Below, in pieces: positions 16,547-49,249 of a stretch of DNA of 64,000 nt. This stretch comes from Parvimonas sp. oral taxon 110 str. F0139 (GTDB taxonomy: Bacteria; Bacillota; Clostridia; Tissierellales; Peptoniphilaceae), in the NCBI RefSeq assembly GCF_000214475.1, contig NZ_AFII01000001.1, forward strand, positions 248,001-312,000, read 5' to 3'. The translations under genes were made by a program, and so were the position numbers. The notes beneath the pieces were generated by a model. The model had not been told where the DNA came from. It worked only from the letters and a program-made list of their open reading frames with translations, and ran no database searches. Position 1 is the stretch's first letter; each line of letters starts with the position of its first letter.

Positions 16547-17832
16547 ATGGATTTATTTAAAATGAATTACAATTTATTTTCTAAATTATCAAAACCATTG
16601 GCCGAAAGAATGAGACCAAAGGATTTATCTTTTTTTATTGGTCAAGATAATATAATAAAAAATAATTCTGTGCTAAAAAACATGATAAAAAATAATAGAT
16701 TTTCGTCAATGATATTATATGGTCCACCAGGATCTGGGAAAACATCACTTGCAAATATTATTTCTAGTACTACTGATAATTATTTTGTAAAAATTTCTGC
16801 AGTTACATCTGGAACAAAGGAGATTAAAGAAATAATTGAACTTGCAAAAGATAATTTATCAATGTATAATAAAAGAACTATATTATTTATAGATGAGATA
16901 CATAGATTCAATAAAATGCAACAAGATTATCTACTAGAATTTGTTGAAAATGGAGATATAATATTTATTGGAGCTACTACAGAAAATCCTGCTTATGAAG
17001 TAAATAATGCATTATTATCAAGAGTTATTGTTTTTGAATTACAATCACTTAGTTTTGAACATTTAAAAGATATAATTGACAATGCTATTTTAAATGATGA
17101 AATTTTAAAGAATAAAAAATAAGCTATACAGAAGATGGCATAAGCTATTTAATAAAAATGTCAAATGGAGATGCAAGAACGGCATTAAATTATCTTGAAT
17201 TAATTATTGACAATATTGAATCTGAAGATAAAGTTATATCTGAAAATAAAATCAAGAATATTCTTGACAAGGTAAAAGTATATTATGATAAAAATTCAGA
17301 TAAACATTATAATTTCATTTCTGCTTTTATAAAATCTATGAGAATAGGAGATCCTGATGCTGTTGTTTATTATTTAGCGTCAATGTTAATTTCTGGTGAA
17401 GATATCAATTTTATTGCAAGAAGAATGATAATCTTTGCATCAGAAGATATTGGAAATGCAAATCCAAATGCACTGATTTTAGCAAATTCATGTGCAGAAT
17501 CTGTAAAAAAATTAGGAATGCCTGAAGCAAGGATTATTTTATCACAATGTGCCATTTACCTTGCATGTAGTGAAAAAAGCAACTCATCCTACTTAGCTAT
17601 AAATAAGGCATTAAAATTTATAAAAGAAAATGGACTTGAAGAAGTTCCTATCTTTTTACAAACTTCAAGATCAATATCTAAAAAAAATGAGGAATATAAG
17701 TATCCTCACGACTATGAAAATATGGTTACAGGTCAAGAATATTTACCTGAAAAAATTAAAGATATAAATTTTTATAACCCAAAAAATGTTGGATATGAAA
17801 AAAATTTTTTTGATAAATTAGAGGAGGAATAG
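16547..17832 (+). CDS. rarA: Replication-associated AAA ATPase RarA (MgsA) (frame broken)
   Basis: Clamp-loader-like ATPase acting at stalled replication forks. Opens with LAERMRPKDLSFFIGQDNI, then Walker A GPPGSGKTS and Walker B LFIDEIHRF; the C-terminal tetramerisation part includes SNGDARTALNYLE and SEDIGNANP. The frame stops at the A6 run 17114-17119; one more A restores KNKKISYTEDGISYLIKM and gives about 428 residues, the normal length. asnS starts one base after the stop, so the two are probably co-transcribed. Confidence 0.92.
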
Positions 17833-17833
17833 A

Positions 17834-19218
17834 ATGTTTTTACTAAAAGATATTTTTGCAAATGAAAAAATTTTTATTGACAAAGAAGTTGAAGTGGCAG
17901 GTTGGATAAAAAATAGTCGTTTTAATAATAATATTGGTTTTATAGAGCTTAATGATGGAACAACTTTCAGAAGTATTCAAATTGTAGTTGAATCAAAACT
18001 AGATAATTTTCAAACTATATCAAAATTACTGTTACCTTCCGCAATTATAGTTAAAGGTAAAGTTGTTAAAAGTTTAGGTGGAAAACAAAATTTTGAAATT
18101 AATGCCTCTGAAATAGTAGTTGAAGGAGAGTCCACTGATAAGTATCCTCTTCAAAAGAAAAGACACACATTTGAATTTTTGAGAACAATCCAACATCTAA
18201 GACCAAGAGCAAATACATTTAATGCTGTTTTTAGAGTTAGATCAATTTTAAGCTATGCTCTACATAAATTCTTTTTCGAAAGAGGATTTGTTTATGCACA
18301 CACACCAATTATAACTGCAAGTGATGCAGAAGGTGCTGGCGAAATGTTTAGAGTGACAAATTTAGATATAAACAATATACCTAGAACAAATAATGGAGAA
18401 GTTGATTTCACCCAAGATTTTTTTCTAAACCAACAAATTTAACTGTTAGTGGTCAATTAGAAGGTGAAGCATTTGCAATGGCATATAGAAATATCTATAC
18501 ATTTGGACCAACATTTAGAGCTGAAAATTCAAATACTACAAGACATGCTGCTGAATTTTGGATGATTGAACCAGAAATAGCTTTTGCTGATTTAAAAGAT
18601 GTTATTAAATTATCAGAAGATATGGTTAAATATATTATTAAATTCGTTTTAGAAAATGCTCCTGATGAAATGAAGTTTTTTAATGATTTTATAGATAATG
18701 GATTACTCGAAAGGTTAAATTCTGTTGTTAATTCAGAATTTAAGGTTATGACATATACTGAAGCAATAGAAATATTAAAATCATCCAAAGAAAATTTCAA
18801 ATACCCGGTTGAATGGGGAGTTGATTTGAAAACAGAACATGAAAGATATATCTGTGAAAAAATCGTAAAGGGTCCTGTTTTTTTAACAGATTATCCAAAA
18901 GAAATAAAAGCATTCTATATGAGATTAAATGATGATAATAAAACTGTTGCAGCAACAGATATGTTAGTTCCAGGTATAGGAGAACTAATAGGAGGAAGTC
19001 AAAGAGAAGAAAGACTTGAAATATTAGAACAAAAAATGAAAGATTCAAATATGAATATTGATGATTATTCTTGGTATTTAGACTTAAGAAGATTTGGTGG
19101 AACAAAACATGGAGGTTATGGATTAGGATTTGAAAGAATGTTAATGTATTTAACAGGAATGCAAAATATAAGAGATGTATTACCATTCCCAAGAACAGTA
19201 GGATTATGTGAATTTTAA
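17834..19218 (+). CDS. asnS: Asparaginyl-tRNA synthetase (frame broken)
   Basis: Class IIb synthetase. N-terminal OB-fold anticodon-binding domain ([19 protein letters not shown]), then the catalytic core with motif 2 around [26 protein letters not shown] and motif 3 [11 protein letters not shown] at the end, followed by LPFPRTVG. The [12 protein letters not shown] pattern fits AsnRS rather than AspRS. The T7 run 18418-18424 lacks a T; repair gives [18 protein letters not shown] and 461 residues. AGGAGG precedes the start. Confidence 0.95.
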
Positions 19219-19379: not shown

Positions 19380-19417
19380 GTATTTTTATTTCGTAATTGC
19401 AATAATTGAGGTGTATT

Positions 19418-20037
19418 ATGTTAAAGAATAAAAAAGATATAATTTTAATTATATGTATGTTTTTAGGATTAACTGTTCTTGGATTTACTTATAAATATTT
19501 AACATCTACTAACGAGAAAAAAGCTGTAGAAAATATTCACAATGAAAGCAAACTCCAAAATGAAGAAAACTCTTCAGAAAATAAAGATCAAAATTTAGAA
19601 ATATATGTACATATTGATGGAGAAGTAAAAAAACCTGGTGTATATAAGATGAAAATAGGGGATAGAGTTAATGACGCAATTCAAGCAGCAGGTGGATTAA
19701 CTGAAAATGCTGAAAAAAGCAAAATTAATTTGGCTACAAAACTTAAAGATGAAATGAAAATACATATTTTCAAAATTGGAGAAACTAATGGAGATTCACA
19801 CAATGAATCTAGAGATGTTGATAATAGCTCCATTGAAAGTAATAGTAAATTAATTAATATTAATACTGCAAGTAAGGAAGAGCTTTGTAAATTAACTGGA
19901 ATAGGAGAGAATAAAGCTAAACTTATAATAGAGTATAGAGAAAAAAAGAAATTTACTAAAATTGAAGATATTACAAAAGTTTCGGGAATTGGAAAGAAAA
20001 CTTTTGAAAAATAAAAAATGATATAACAGTAGATTAG
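19418..20037 (+). CDS. comEA: ComEA-family DNA-binding protein (frame broken at the end)
   Basis: About 206 residues. An N-terminal membrane anchor (ILIICMFLGLTVLGFTY, residues 7-23) is followed by a polar linker, an SLBB domain (EIYVHIDGEVKKPGVYKM) and a C-terminal double helix-hairpin-helix (LININTASKEELCKLTGIG ... VSGIGKKTFEK). Binds DNA outside the membrane during uptake. The A5 run 20007-20011 lacks one A; repair gives FEKIKNDITVD and a stop at 20035-20037. RBS GAGGTG at 19408-19413. comEB and comEC are not adjacent. The stop overlaps the selD ribosome binding site. Confidence 0.88.
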
Positions 20038-20046
20038 GAGAAAATA

Positions 20047-21090
20047 ATGAAAGATACTAATTTAAAAGATATAAAATTAACTTCATATGCGAAAACTTCA
20101 GGATGAGCAGCTAAAGTTGGTCCAGATATTCTGGACGAGGTATTATCAGAATTGGATAACAGCACTTCAATAAGTGAAGATTTAATTGTAGGAATAGAAA
20201 CTTCTGATGATGCAGCTGTTTATAAGATTAATAATGAACTAGCATTAATTGAGACTTTAGACTTTTTTACTCCTATAGTTGATGATCCGTATACTTTTGG
20301 CAAAATTGCCGCTGCTAATTCTCTTTCAGACGTTTATGCAATGGGTGGAGAACCAACTATGGCGATGAATATTGTATGTTTCCCAAATTGTTTACCTCCA
20401 AAGATTTTAACAGAAATATTAAAAGGTGGACTTGAAAAAATGCAAGAAGCTGAATGTTTACTAATTGGAGGACATACTGTTCAAGATGATGAACCGAAAT
20501 ATGGGTTAAGTGTTTCAGGTTTTGTTCATCCTAATAAAGTTTGGAAAAATTCCTCTGCTAGAATTGGTGATATTTTAATTTTAACAAAGCCATTAGGTCT
20601 CGGAATAATAAATACTGCTATAAAAGGTGGAGTTGCAACTGAAGAAGAAATTGCAGATGCAGTTCATACTATGGAAACTCTTAACAAATACGCAAAAAGA
20701 TCGATAGAAAATTATACAATTAATTCTTGTACGGATATTACAGGATTTGGATTAATGGGCCATTGTTATGAAATGGCTAAAGGATCAGATACTACTTTTA
20801 TAATTGATAGTTCTAACTTACCTATTTTAAAGGGTGCAATAGATTATGCTAATATTGGACTTATTCCTAAAGGTTGCTACGATAATAAAAAATTTGTTGG
20901 AAATAACTATATGGTGGAAAAAGAAATAGATGAATCTCTTTTAAATGTAATGTTTAATCCTGAAACATCAGGTGGACTTCTAATTACAGTTCCTGAAAAC
21001 GAAGTAGTAGATATTCTAAATAATTTAAGAGGTATTCCAACAAGATTTGCTGTTGTTGGTAAAGTTGTAGAAAAAAAAGAAAATATTTAA
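20047..21090 (+). CDS. selD: Selenide, water dikinase SelD, a selenoprotein with UGA-encoded Sec20
   Basis: Makes selenophosphate from selenide and ATP, the selenium donor for Sec-tRNA and selenouridine. AGGAG at 20036-20040 precedes the ATG at 20047. Codon 20 is TGA (20104-20106) in the context TSG-Sec-AAKVGP, exactly the catalytic Cys/Sec position of SelD. The same frame continues for 327 residues with DDAAVYK, NSLSDVYAMGGEP and GGHTVQDDEP, ending at 21090. Translation can only give an active enzyme if UGA is read as selenocysteine. A hairpin just after the UGA fits a bacterial SECIS. selA and selB follow. An annotation starting downstream of the UGA (for example at 20152) would lose the active site. 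Confidence 0.93.
20104..20136 (+). promoter_or_regulatory. Candidate bacterial SECIS element in selD
   Basis: After the UGA at 20104-20106, GTCCAG at 20120-20125 and CTGGAC at 20131-20136 form a perfect six-base-pair stem with loop ATATT. The loop starts 19 bases after the UGA, inside the known spacing range for bacterial SECIS. SelB would bind this hairpin. The loop lacks an obvious G unless the closing G-C pair opens. Confidence 0.65.
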
Positions 21091-21136: not shown

Positions 21137-22524
21137 ATGAATTTATACAAAATGATACCTAAAGTTGATCAAATATTAGATAATGATGTAATAAAAGATT
21201 TATTAGATAAAAATTCAAAAAATTTAGTTATGGAATCAATTCATGAAGAACTAGATAATATTCGAAATAATATTTCTAATGGATATGATAAAAATATTAT
21301 TTCAAATAAGATTGAAAATCTAATTGATAACATTAAAGATAATTTAATGAACAAAAAACATTCAGTTTAAGAAATGTTGTTAATGCATCAGGAGTTATTA
21401 TTCATACTAATTTAGGAAGATCTGTTTTAAATAGTGAAATTTTTGAAAATATTAAAAAAGTTTCAATCGGATATTCTAATCTTGAATATAATTTAGAAAA
21501 AGGAGAACGTGGATCGAGATATTCTCATTTAAGTGAAATTATAAAAAAAATTACCGGGGCAGAAGACTGTATGGTTGTAAATAATAATGCTGCGGCAGTT
21601 ATGTTGATTCTATCTACAATAGCAAAAGGAAAGAATGTAATTACAAGTAGAAGTGAGCTTGTTGAAATTGGAGGATCATTTAGAATTCCTGATGTTTGTA
21701 GAGAAAGTGGAGCAGAACTAAAAGAAATAGGGACAACCAATAAAACGCATCTTAGAGATTATGAAAATGCCATTGATGAAAATACAGCAGCACTGTTTAA
21801 AGTTCATCAAAGTAATTTTAAAATTTTAGGATTTACTGAAGCTGTGTCTTCATTTGAATTAAATAGCTTAAAAGAAAAATATAATATTCCTATTATTGAA
21901 GACTTAGGTTCTGGAGTTCTTATAGATTTATCTAAATATGGGTTATCTCATGAACCGACTGTCCAAGAATGTATTAAAAATGGTGTTGATATTGTAAGTT
22001 TCAGTGGAGATAAATTGCTTGGTGGGGTTCAAGCAGGTATTATTGTTGGTAAAAAAGAATATATTGAAAAAATGAAAAAAAATCAATTAACTAGAGCTTT
22101 AAGAGTTGATAAATTTACTTTGTCAGCATTAGAAGCTGTATTTTCATATTATATTGACGAAGAATTAGCTATTTCAAAGATACCAACATTAAATATGTTA
22201 ACTATAAAAATTGAGAAACTGTACGATAAAGCCCAAAAACTTATCGAATATTTGGGAGAAAATAACGAATTTTCTTATGAAATTATAGATATCGATTCAG
22301 AAGTTGGTGCAGGTTCACTTCCAACTCAAAAATTACCATCAAAGGCTATAAAAGTAATTTCAAAATCATTTACAGAAAATGAATTAGAGGAAAAGTTAAG
22401 AAGTAATAGAATTCCAATAATTACAAGAATTTATAAAGGAAATTTAATTTTTGATGTGAGAACAATTTTTGAAAATGAATTTTGTATAATTAAAGATGCA
22501 TTAAATTCGTTAATAGGAGAATAA
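21137..22524 (+). CDS. selA: L-seryl-tRNA(Sec) selenium transferase (frame broken)
   Basis: PLP enzyme that converts Ser-tRNA(Sec) to Sec-tRNA(Sec) using selenophosphate. The N-terminal tRNA-binding part (MIPKVDQIL) is followed by RNVVNASGVIIHTNLGRS, NNNAAAVML, EDLGSGVLIDL and the PLP-lysine block SGDKLLGGVQAG. The A6 run 21353-21358 lacks one A; repair joins NKKTFSLRNVV and gives about 462 residues, the normal size. GGAG upstream selects the ATG at 21137. selB starts two bases after the stop. Confidence 0.95.
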
Positions 22525-22525
22525 T

Positions 22526-24430
22526 ATGGATAATAAGAAAAATATTATCGTAGGAACAGCCGGACATATAGATCACGGTAAAACAACTTTAATAAGAGCA
22601 TTAACCGGAAGAAATACAGATAGATTAAAAGAAGAACAAAATAGAGGTATATCTATTGAATTAGGATTTACTCATTTTGATTTAAATGATGAACTTAGAG
22701 TAGGAATTATTGACGTTCCTGGTCATGAAAAGTTTATAAAAAATATGTTATCCGGCGTTTGTGGAATGGATATGATAATTTTAGTTGTAGCTGCTGATGA
22801 AGGAATCATGGCTCAAACTAAGGAACATTTAGATATTCTAAATTTAATAGGTATAAAAAATGGGATTATTGCTTTAACAAAATGCGATTTAGTTGATAAA
22901 GATTGGATTGAACTTGTTAAATTAGATATAGCTGATGAAGTTTCTGGAACATTTTTAGAAGATGCTAAAATAATAGAAGTATCATCAACTGAAAAAATTG
23001 GAATTGAGCAATTAAAAAATGAAATAATAAGAATAGTGAATACATTACCGGAAAAAGATTTAAATTCAAATCCAAGATTATATGTTGATAGATCATTCTC
23101 AATAACTGGATTTGGGACTGTTGTTACAGGAACATTAATATCAGGAACACTGAATCTTGATGATGAAATTCTAATTTATCCTTCAAACAAAATAACAAAG
23201 GTTAGAAATTTACAAGTACATGACAATAATGTTAATTCGGCTTATTCTGGTCAACGTGTTGCTGTAAATCTCGCAAATATCAAAAAAGAAGATGTTCCAA
23301 AGGGTTCAGTACTAGTTCCTAATAACACTTTTACTGAGAGTAGTATTATAGATGTAAAATTAAAGACAATTAATTTACCTTTTGAAATTACTAATAGAAC
23401 AAGATTTCATTTATATTTAGGTTCCAGTGAAGTTTTATGTAGAGCAATCTTATTAGAAAATGACGTGTTAGAATCAAATAAAGAATATATAGTTCAATTA
23501 AGATTGGAAGAACCTATCATTAGTAAAAGAAATGATAGATTTATATTAAGATTATTTTCACCACTATATACTATTGGTGGAGGATATATTATTGATCCAA
23601 ACGCTACTAAGAAAAAAAGATTTAATAGTCATGATATAGAAAAAATAAAAAATCTTGATAATTGTAATTTCAAAGAATATATATATAATTACATAGATAG
23701 ATTTAGTGAAAAATTCTATATAGAAAAAAATTATTACAATTTTTTATCAGATTCAGATAATAATATTTCTAAATTTATTGATGAATTAATAAATGAAAAT
23801 AGAGTTGTTTCTTTTGGGAATAATTCTGATAGATTAATTTTATCAGATAGATATATAGCAACGTTATGTAAAAAAATAACTAAATTTATAGAAGATTTTC
23901 ATGCTAAATACCCAAAAAGAATTGGAGTTTCAAAAGAAACTATTAAATCAAAATTTTTTGATTCTTTAAGTGGAAAAATAAAAAATGAATTTATGAACTA
24001 CTTAATTTCAGATAATTTTAAAGTTTCAGATGAATATATTTCTACTCTAGATTTTACAGTTTCATTAGATGATGAAGATTCTAAGTATATTAAAAATATT
24101 AAAAACATATTTAATTCAAGTAAATTCTCAATTTTAAATTATGACGATTTTAGTTTAAATATTACAATCGAACACTTTAAAGAACTTATATTGTATTTGA
24201 TAGCTAATAAAGACATTGTGAAATTGGATTCAGGTTATATGCTTAAAGATAATTATAACTTAGCTGTAAATATGATTAGAGAATTTATAATAAGAAATGG
24301 AACTATTTCTGTCTCAGATGCGAGAGATTTATTAAATTCTAATAGAAAATCAACTATGGAATTACTTGAATTTTTAGATAAAGAAAAGATAACTTTAAGA
24401 AAAGATAATGAAAGAATATTGGTGAAATAG
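22526..24430 (+). CDS. selB: Selenocysteine-specific elongation factor SelB
   Basis: GTPase that brings Sec-tRNA to UGA codons at a SECIS hairpin. The G domain opens with GTAGHIDHGKTTLIRALTG and has DVPGHEKFI and TKCDLVD. EF-Tu-like domains II and III follow, then C-terminal winged-helix domains that bind SECIS RNA (residues 400-634). 634 residues, intact. Two bases after selA, so selD-selA-selB form one unit. selC (tRNA-Sec) was not found in the window. Confidence 0.95.
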   Translation: MDNKKNIIVGTAGHIDHGKTTLIRALTGRNTDRLKEEQNRGISIELGFTHFDLNDELRVGIIDVPGHEKFIKNMLSGVCGMDMIILVVAADEGIMAQTKEHLDILNLIGIKNGIIALTKCDLVDKDWIELVKLDIADEVSGTFLEDAKIIEVSSTEKIGIEQLKNEIIRIVNTLPEKDLNSNPRLYVDRSFSITGFGTVVTGTLISGTLNLDDEILIYPSNKITKVRNLQVHDNNVNSAYSGQRVAVNLANIKKEDVPKGSVLVPNNTFTESSIIDVKLKTINLPFEITNRTRFHLYLGSSEVLCRAILLENDVLESNKEYIVQLRLEEPIISKRNDRFILRLFSPLYTIGGGYIIDPNATKKKRFNSHDIEKIKNLDNCNFKEYIYNYIDRFSEKFYIEKNYYNFLSDSDNNISKFIDELINENRVVSFGNNSDRLILSDRYIATLCKKITKFIEDFHAKYPKRIGVSKETIKSKFFDSLSGKIKNEFMNYLISDNFKVSDEYISTLDFTVSLDDEDSKYIKNIKNIFNSSKFSILNYDDFSLNITIEHFKELILYLIANKDIVKLDSGYMLKDNYNLAVNMIREFIIRNGTISVSDARDLLNSNRKSTMELLEFLDKEKITLRKDNERILVK

Positions 24431-48899: not shown

Positions 48900-48911
48900 T
48901 TTAATTATAAA

Positions 48912-49240
48912 TATTAAGCAAAACTATAAGCCGTGTTCTGTATTAGACAATCATCTATCTAGACAAATTGTTGCCAATTTGTTCAAGCAATCTACCTATG
49001 AACGTAGCGAGCAACTACAAAAGTTCAATCTTGATCTTGCACCGAATGGGGTTTACATAGCCATACAGTCTCCTATATGCTGGTAAGCTCTTACCTCACC
49101 TTTCCACCCTTACCATTATAAATGGCGGTATATCTCTGTTGCACTAGCCTTAGGGTCGCCCCCACTGGACGTTATCCAGCATTCTACTCTATGGTGCACG
49201 GACTTTCCTCGTGATTATATCACGCGATTGTCTGTTTTAC
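48912..49240 (-). ncRNA. rnpB: RNase P RNA
   Basis: Catalytic RNA of RNase P that matures tRNA 5' ends. Read on the - strand it has the universal GAGGAAAGTCCGTGC (P4 5' strand), GTGCAACAGAGA, GGTAAGGGTGGAAAGGTGAG, GTAAACCCCATTCGG and the closing ACAGAACACGGCTTAT (P4 3' strand). The ends pair as CAGACAATC / GATTGTCT (P1). The P1 and 3' segment pattern resembles ancestral type A RNase P RNAs. Length about 330. The whole region is much richer in G+C than its surroundings. Confidence 0.95.
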
Positions 49241-49249
49241 TTAATTTGA

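Follow-up and report, generated by a model that had tools for sequence, protein, structure and literature searches.

In reference prokaryotes, 19% of the SelD genes detected contain selenocysteine (Sec), always at the same position (available part of PMC4561486). The catalytic Sec of SelD lies in an N-terminal selenium-binding loop, and SelD is described as "second most expansive" in the available part of PMC13188914. The same excerpt gives the bSECIS model for bacterial SECIS elements (loop of 3-9 nt, stem of 4-16 bp, spacing of 16-37 nt, MFE <=-7.5 kcal/mol, G in the first two apical-loop positions) and indicates that some bSECIS elements fail it. Atypical SECIS elements exist, and at least 40 known genes (13.0%) escaped bSECISearch in a test, according to the excerpt available from PMC12013277.

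We analysed 64,000 nucleotides of Parvimonas sp. oral taxon 110 str. F0139 (hereafter the window, to which all positions refer unless stated otherwise), harbouring a selD gene with the following features:

20036..20040, + strand: ribosome-binding site AGGAG, 6 bases 5' of the ATG (direct sequence reading)
20047..21090, + strand: selD (selenide water dikinase), 347 codons, of which one is an in-frame TGA (TIGR00476; PDB 2yye, 3u0o)
20104..20106, + strand: TGA (codon 20), proposed as the catalytic selenocysteine (aligned to Cys in solved SelD chains; 6/6 congeners)
20120..20136, + strand: SECIS candidate h1, arms 20120-20126 and 20130-20136, loop UAU at 20127-20129 (folding, stem comparison, covariation)
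20131..20133, + strand: CTG, a rare Leu codon within the 3' arm of h1 and invariant across six congeners (Leu codon counts)

The selD frame starts at the ATG at 20047-20049 and stops at 21088-21090. With the TGA translated as Sec, its product matched the TIGR00476 equivalog model (E 5e-116, 387.3 bits, cut-off 125), identifying it as SelD, and residue 20 was aligned with the Cys of the matched solved SelD chains (PDB 2yye, 3u0o), which we take to be the catalytic Cys. The first-pass annotation had the gene opening at 20047 behind AGGAG and running to 21090, with a TGA codon at residue 20, the catalytic Cys/Sec site; all of this holds, except for what may be a gap at the 3' end. The selD frame has 351-352 codons in the congeners vs. 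347 in the window and their C-terminus differs from that of the window, which suggests a single-base gap near the selD 3' end. Codon 20149-20151 encodes Glu in the window vs. Gly in 6/6 congeners, and is either an error or a private variant.

If the TGA were a true stop, a shorter SelD would begin downstream, near the TTG at 20152. Mechanical ORF calling gives this frame, which still matches TIGR00476, and the TTG is the first in-frame start codon 3' of the TGA, where the first-pass annotation had expected callers reading UGA as a stop to begin the gene. Such callers drop the catalytic residue of the enzyme underpinning the selenium pathway. However, the short protein would have neither residue 20 nor the N-terminal stretch conserved in relatives, and the codons 5' of the TGA are under protein constraint: amino acids at codons 15-19 are identical in six congeners and the changes are synonymous, as expected if translation continues through the TGA. 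We consider a true stop very improbable.

The TGA might also be a sequencing error or a private mutation of TGC/TGT. Between 19301 and 24600, the window has three single-base gaps in 5.3 kb with respect to the nearest genome (G001, 98.8% identity over 5.3 kb). The gaps printed in the alignments, however, are located in A-runs and are not substitutions in codon 20. Moreover, TGA is present at selD codon 20 in 6/6 congeners and within the SelD match in 29 of the 86 SelD-bearing family genomes (130 searched; matches at E 1e-30 or better), indicating that it is no private error; this alternative has very little chance of being correct. Two of the 29 genomes (G024 and G125) harbour another stop within the SelD match as well.

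The tRNA-Sec exceeded the cut-off in 28 of the 29 genomes with a TGA-containing SelD, in 19 of 57 with a stop-free SelD match and in 1 of 44 without a SelD match; this search used stricter filters, losing weak matches. No tRNA-Sec was found under these filters in G115, which has a Sec-type SelD and a genome 76% complete. The nearest genome, G001, harbours tRNA-Sec with anticodon TCA; its selC (G001:C1 1023408-1023500) is approximately 257 kb from selD, without a selDABC cluster. The relatives near the window by SelD include Tissierellia and Schnuerera. GrdA contained one in-frame TGA in 6/6 congeners and had the full model length or lacked only the first one or two positions. In 12 of the 14 GrdB loci from congeners, the frame stays open beyond a TGA and leads into GTCTRCG; for the remaining loci, L080 and L083, the script yielded no frame of this kind.

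The TGA could instead be read as an ordinary amino acid (table 4), as TGA ends only 2 of the 43 listed window frames. However, few TGA stops would be expected at 25.3% G+C, the genus has tRNA-Sec, selA and selB, and a Cys is aligned with the TGA in the family relatives G110 and G011 as well as in the solved SelD chains, making this reading scarcely credible. In G110 and G011 (L058 and L059), the Cys (TGT) occupies the Sec position within the Sec-type SelD group, and tRNA-Sec is kept; L058 also keeps a weak hairpin (-3.6), perhaps a SECIS remnant. Sequence comparison leads us to predict, with high confidence, that the catalytic residue 20 of SelD is selenocysteine. That SelD is itself a selenoprotein had been proposed in the first-pass annotation, and is supported by the Cys alignment, the TGA in 6/6 congeners and the tRNA-Sec of the nearest genome.

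The other genes proposed to take part in Sec insertion adjoin selD in the window, while selC was seen in relatives:

21137..22524, + strand: selA, with an interrupted frame in the window and an open one in six congeners (downstream part matches TIGR00474)
22526..24430, + strand: selB, Sec-specific elongation factor (TIGR00475)

The first-pass annotation had noted both genes 3' of selD, and both are there. In the six congeners selA has 462-466 codons, and its break in the window is a single-base gap with respect to G001 and G005. We propose that SelB, bound to Sec-tRNA-Sec, decodes the UGA, most likely assisted by h1, and that the selenophosphate produced by SelD would allow SelA to make further Sec-tRNA. 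As SelD supplies the selenophosphate for Sec-tRNA synthesis by SelA, its own synthesis would depend on its own product, forming a feedback loop. Glycine-reductase selenoproteins would be further users.

The printed single-base gaps are all in A-runs, suggesting homopolymer errors in this assembly; one of them breaks selA and one (vs. G005) is near the end of the upstream gene, the third being the gap suggested by the frames near the selD 3' end. Two further genes (16547-17832 and 17834-19218; presumably rarA-like and asnS-like) are each split into two frames, perhaps by the same type of error. The protein encoded directly upstream of selD (19406-20014) is presumably ComEA-like, and similar peptides were observed in L091 and L165. 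An Rfam search of the whole window at gathering scores found nothing beyond RNase P:

48911-49243, - strand: RNase P RNA, bacterial class A (Rfam)

Downstream of the UGA, the first-pass annotation had noted the hairpin GTCCAG-ATATT-CTGGAC, 13 bases after the TGA, and had pointed to a bacterial SECIS model for folding it. We found it at the h1 position, where it folds as a 7-bp stem with loop UAU, the loop starting 20 nt after the UGA. Folding of the 45 nt from the UGA onwards gave -12.2 kcal/mol (z -2.44), a value reached by 3 of 200 shuffles. The SECIS reading stands as regards the bSECIS limits of spacing (20 nt), stem (7 bp), loop size and energy (-8.6 kcal/mol), but not the apical-G rule: the loop of the best hairpin is UAU, in the window and in 6/6 congeners, with no G in its first two positions. 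Opening two h1 pairs gives the loop GAUAUUC at a weaker energy. The h1 hairpin is intact in the six congeners (-7.3 to -8.6 kcal/mol), and the one varying stem position still pairs (GAC or GAT). The probability of the probed h1 pair was at least 0.94 in the window and in five of the six congeners. In the sixth, G002, h1 is disfavoured (pair probability 0.097) and an overlapping GGUU-loop hairpin wins. In G006, a rival fold is within 1.6 kcal/mol (-10.3 vs. -11.9), and the best-scoring G-less hairpin of the simple-hairpin scan is not h1 but another at +35 (-9.5). Three congeners also have a hairpin at +42/43, which we discounted because it is beyond the 16-37 nt range and was not found in the other three.

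Sec might be inserted at codon 20 using a different SECIS, a degenerate hairpin at +32/33 (GGUU/GGUA), with h1 present by chance or for another role. The 8-bp GGUU hairpin of G002 is at +32, G003 has an interrupted version, and +33 is the place of the hairpin in 15 of the 24 family rows from outside the genus. However, when folded alone, the +32/33 stretch of the window, G001, G005 and G004 reaches only 0.0 to -0.2 kcal/mol, while 6/6 congeners have an intact h1; moreover, the 3' side of the +33 hairpin varies, while the 5' arm of h1 is invariant. We regard the +32/33 hairpin as a possible but rather doubtful SECIS. The h1 hairpin is most likely the element read by SelB, a candidate held with lower confidence than Sec at codon 20, given the +32/33 alternative.

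We also analysed signs of selection on h1. The Leu codon CTG of its 3' arm is rare (18 of 1390 Leu codons, 1.3%, in 43 window frames, some of them broken). Of the 115 Leu columns shared among selD, selA and selB, this column alone had CTG in 6/6 congeners; two other columns had CTG in one genome each. Covariation was analysed in 25 of the 26 sequences with a hairpin at +20 (L010 omitted). In these sequences, picked because they pair, pairing holds in 96% of 175 cells, with a covariation score of 0.405 vs. 0.189 in shuffled alignments (0 of 500 shuffles as high). Of 500 shuffles, 31 matched the number of pairs changed on both sides and 308 that of further pair types. Codon conservation within selD peaks at the 7-codon block of h1, but this is within chance (same maximum in 1767 of 5000 shuffles).

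Next, the stretch behind the TGA was compared across 139 loci, comprising 125 distinct sequences (111 Sec, 12 Cys and 2 misplaced). The SelD anchoring pattern misplaced L143 and L166, which were kept out of the tree, and missed two loci (L121 and L155). Hairpins, defined as stems of at least 5 contiguous pairs round a 3-nt loop, recurred at three places; some sequences had a hairpin at two of these and 15 at none of them. The +33 place was found in 57 sequences (loops GTT 47, GTA 4, GTG 3, GTC 2, ATG 1) and the +17 place in 19 (GGA 8, GGG 6, AGA 2, others 3). The +20 place was found in 26, the window and six congeners among them; the 19 outside the genus (GGA 11, GGT 5, GGC 1, GTT 1, TGA 1) all have a G at loop position 1 or 2. 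When the best simple hairpin was taken from the whole stretch, this G was present in 96 of 111 Sec sequences; the 15 without it were the window, the six congeners and eight others. Among those eight, only L127 has a strong G-less hairpin (-10.2), with a near-equal one (-9.5) of loop GGA. The selD of Clostridium peptidivorans (L110) has an 11-bp hairpin (loop GGT) farther out than the usual 16-37 nt, at +43.

In the SelD tree (123 rows; quick method, SH-aLRT only, hairpin-encoding columns included), the window and the congeners formed one group with support 100. The 24 family rows outside the genus had the hairpin at +33 (15) or +17 (3), none fitting (4) or Cys (2). As most of the family relatives examined use the +33 hairpin, with loop GUN, the selD SECIS element seems to have changed its position within this genus, which is the simplest reading.

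The C-terminal part of SelB aligned with the solved SelB fragments 1lva, 2ply and 1wsu, which we take to bind SECIS RNA. From residue 560, R607, K608, D618, T623 and R630 are kept in the genus and are the same in 21/21 relatives. Columns 569, 605 and 624 are at least 80% uniform in the 21 relatives but different in the genus, with Leu at 624 vs. Lys in 20/21 relatives. The grdB hairpin, located by sequence in 12 congener loci, has the loop GGU in nine and GGA in three, and appears in the full-stretch fold of 11 of the 12. The conserved C-terminal residues and these GGU/GGA loops indicate that the genus SelB probably keeps ordinary SECIS recognition. We tentatively suggest, as one possibility that is not the likeliest, that the selD SECIS shifted from +33 to +20, losing its apical guanine, while grdB kept its GGU/GGA loop; SelB would then read two loop types, perhaps aided by the genus-wide change in its RNA-binding domain (Leu 624 vs. 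Lys in 20/21).

Compared with known systems, the closest is the bacterial Sec-SelD (SPS), with the same N-terminal catalytic UGA, downstream hairpin and Sec machinery; the apical loop of the window hairpin was the only difference found. In the +20 SECIS of Sec-selD from Thermodesulfobacteriota, Myxococcota, Acidobacteriota, Bacillota and others (a grouping made here), the stem has at least 5 pairs and the UGA distance is the same, but the loops are mostly GGA/GGT, compared to TAT in the window. Against the bSECIS model, as given in the available excerpt, h1 agrees in loop, stem, spacing and MFE and fails the apical G in its best fold. Among the literature matches listed, which do not stand for the whole literature, none dealt with a G-less SECIS or with this family. 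The h1 hairpin offers a natural test of whether bacterial SECIS elements truly require the apical G. Sec-SelD is a known arrangement and this gene is ordinary in kind, while its loop, given the atypical elements and the genes missed by bSECISearch in the published excerpts, is atypical within a class whose limits are loose.
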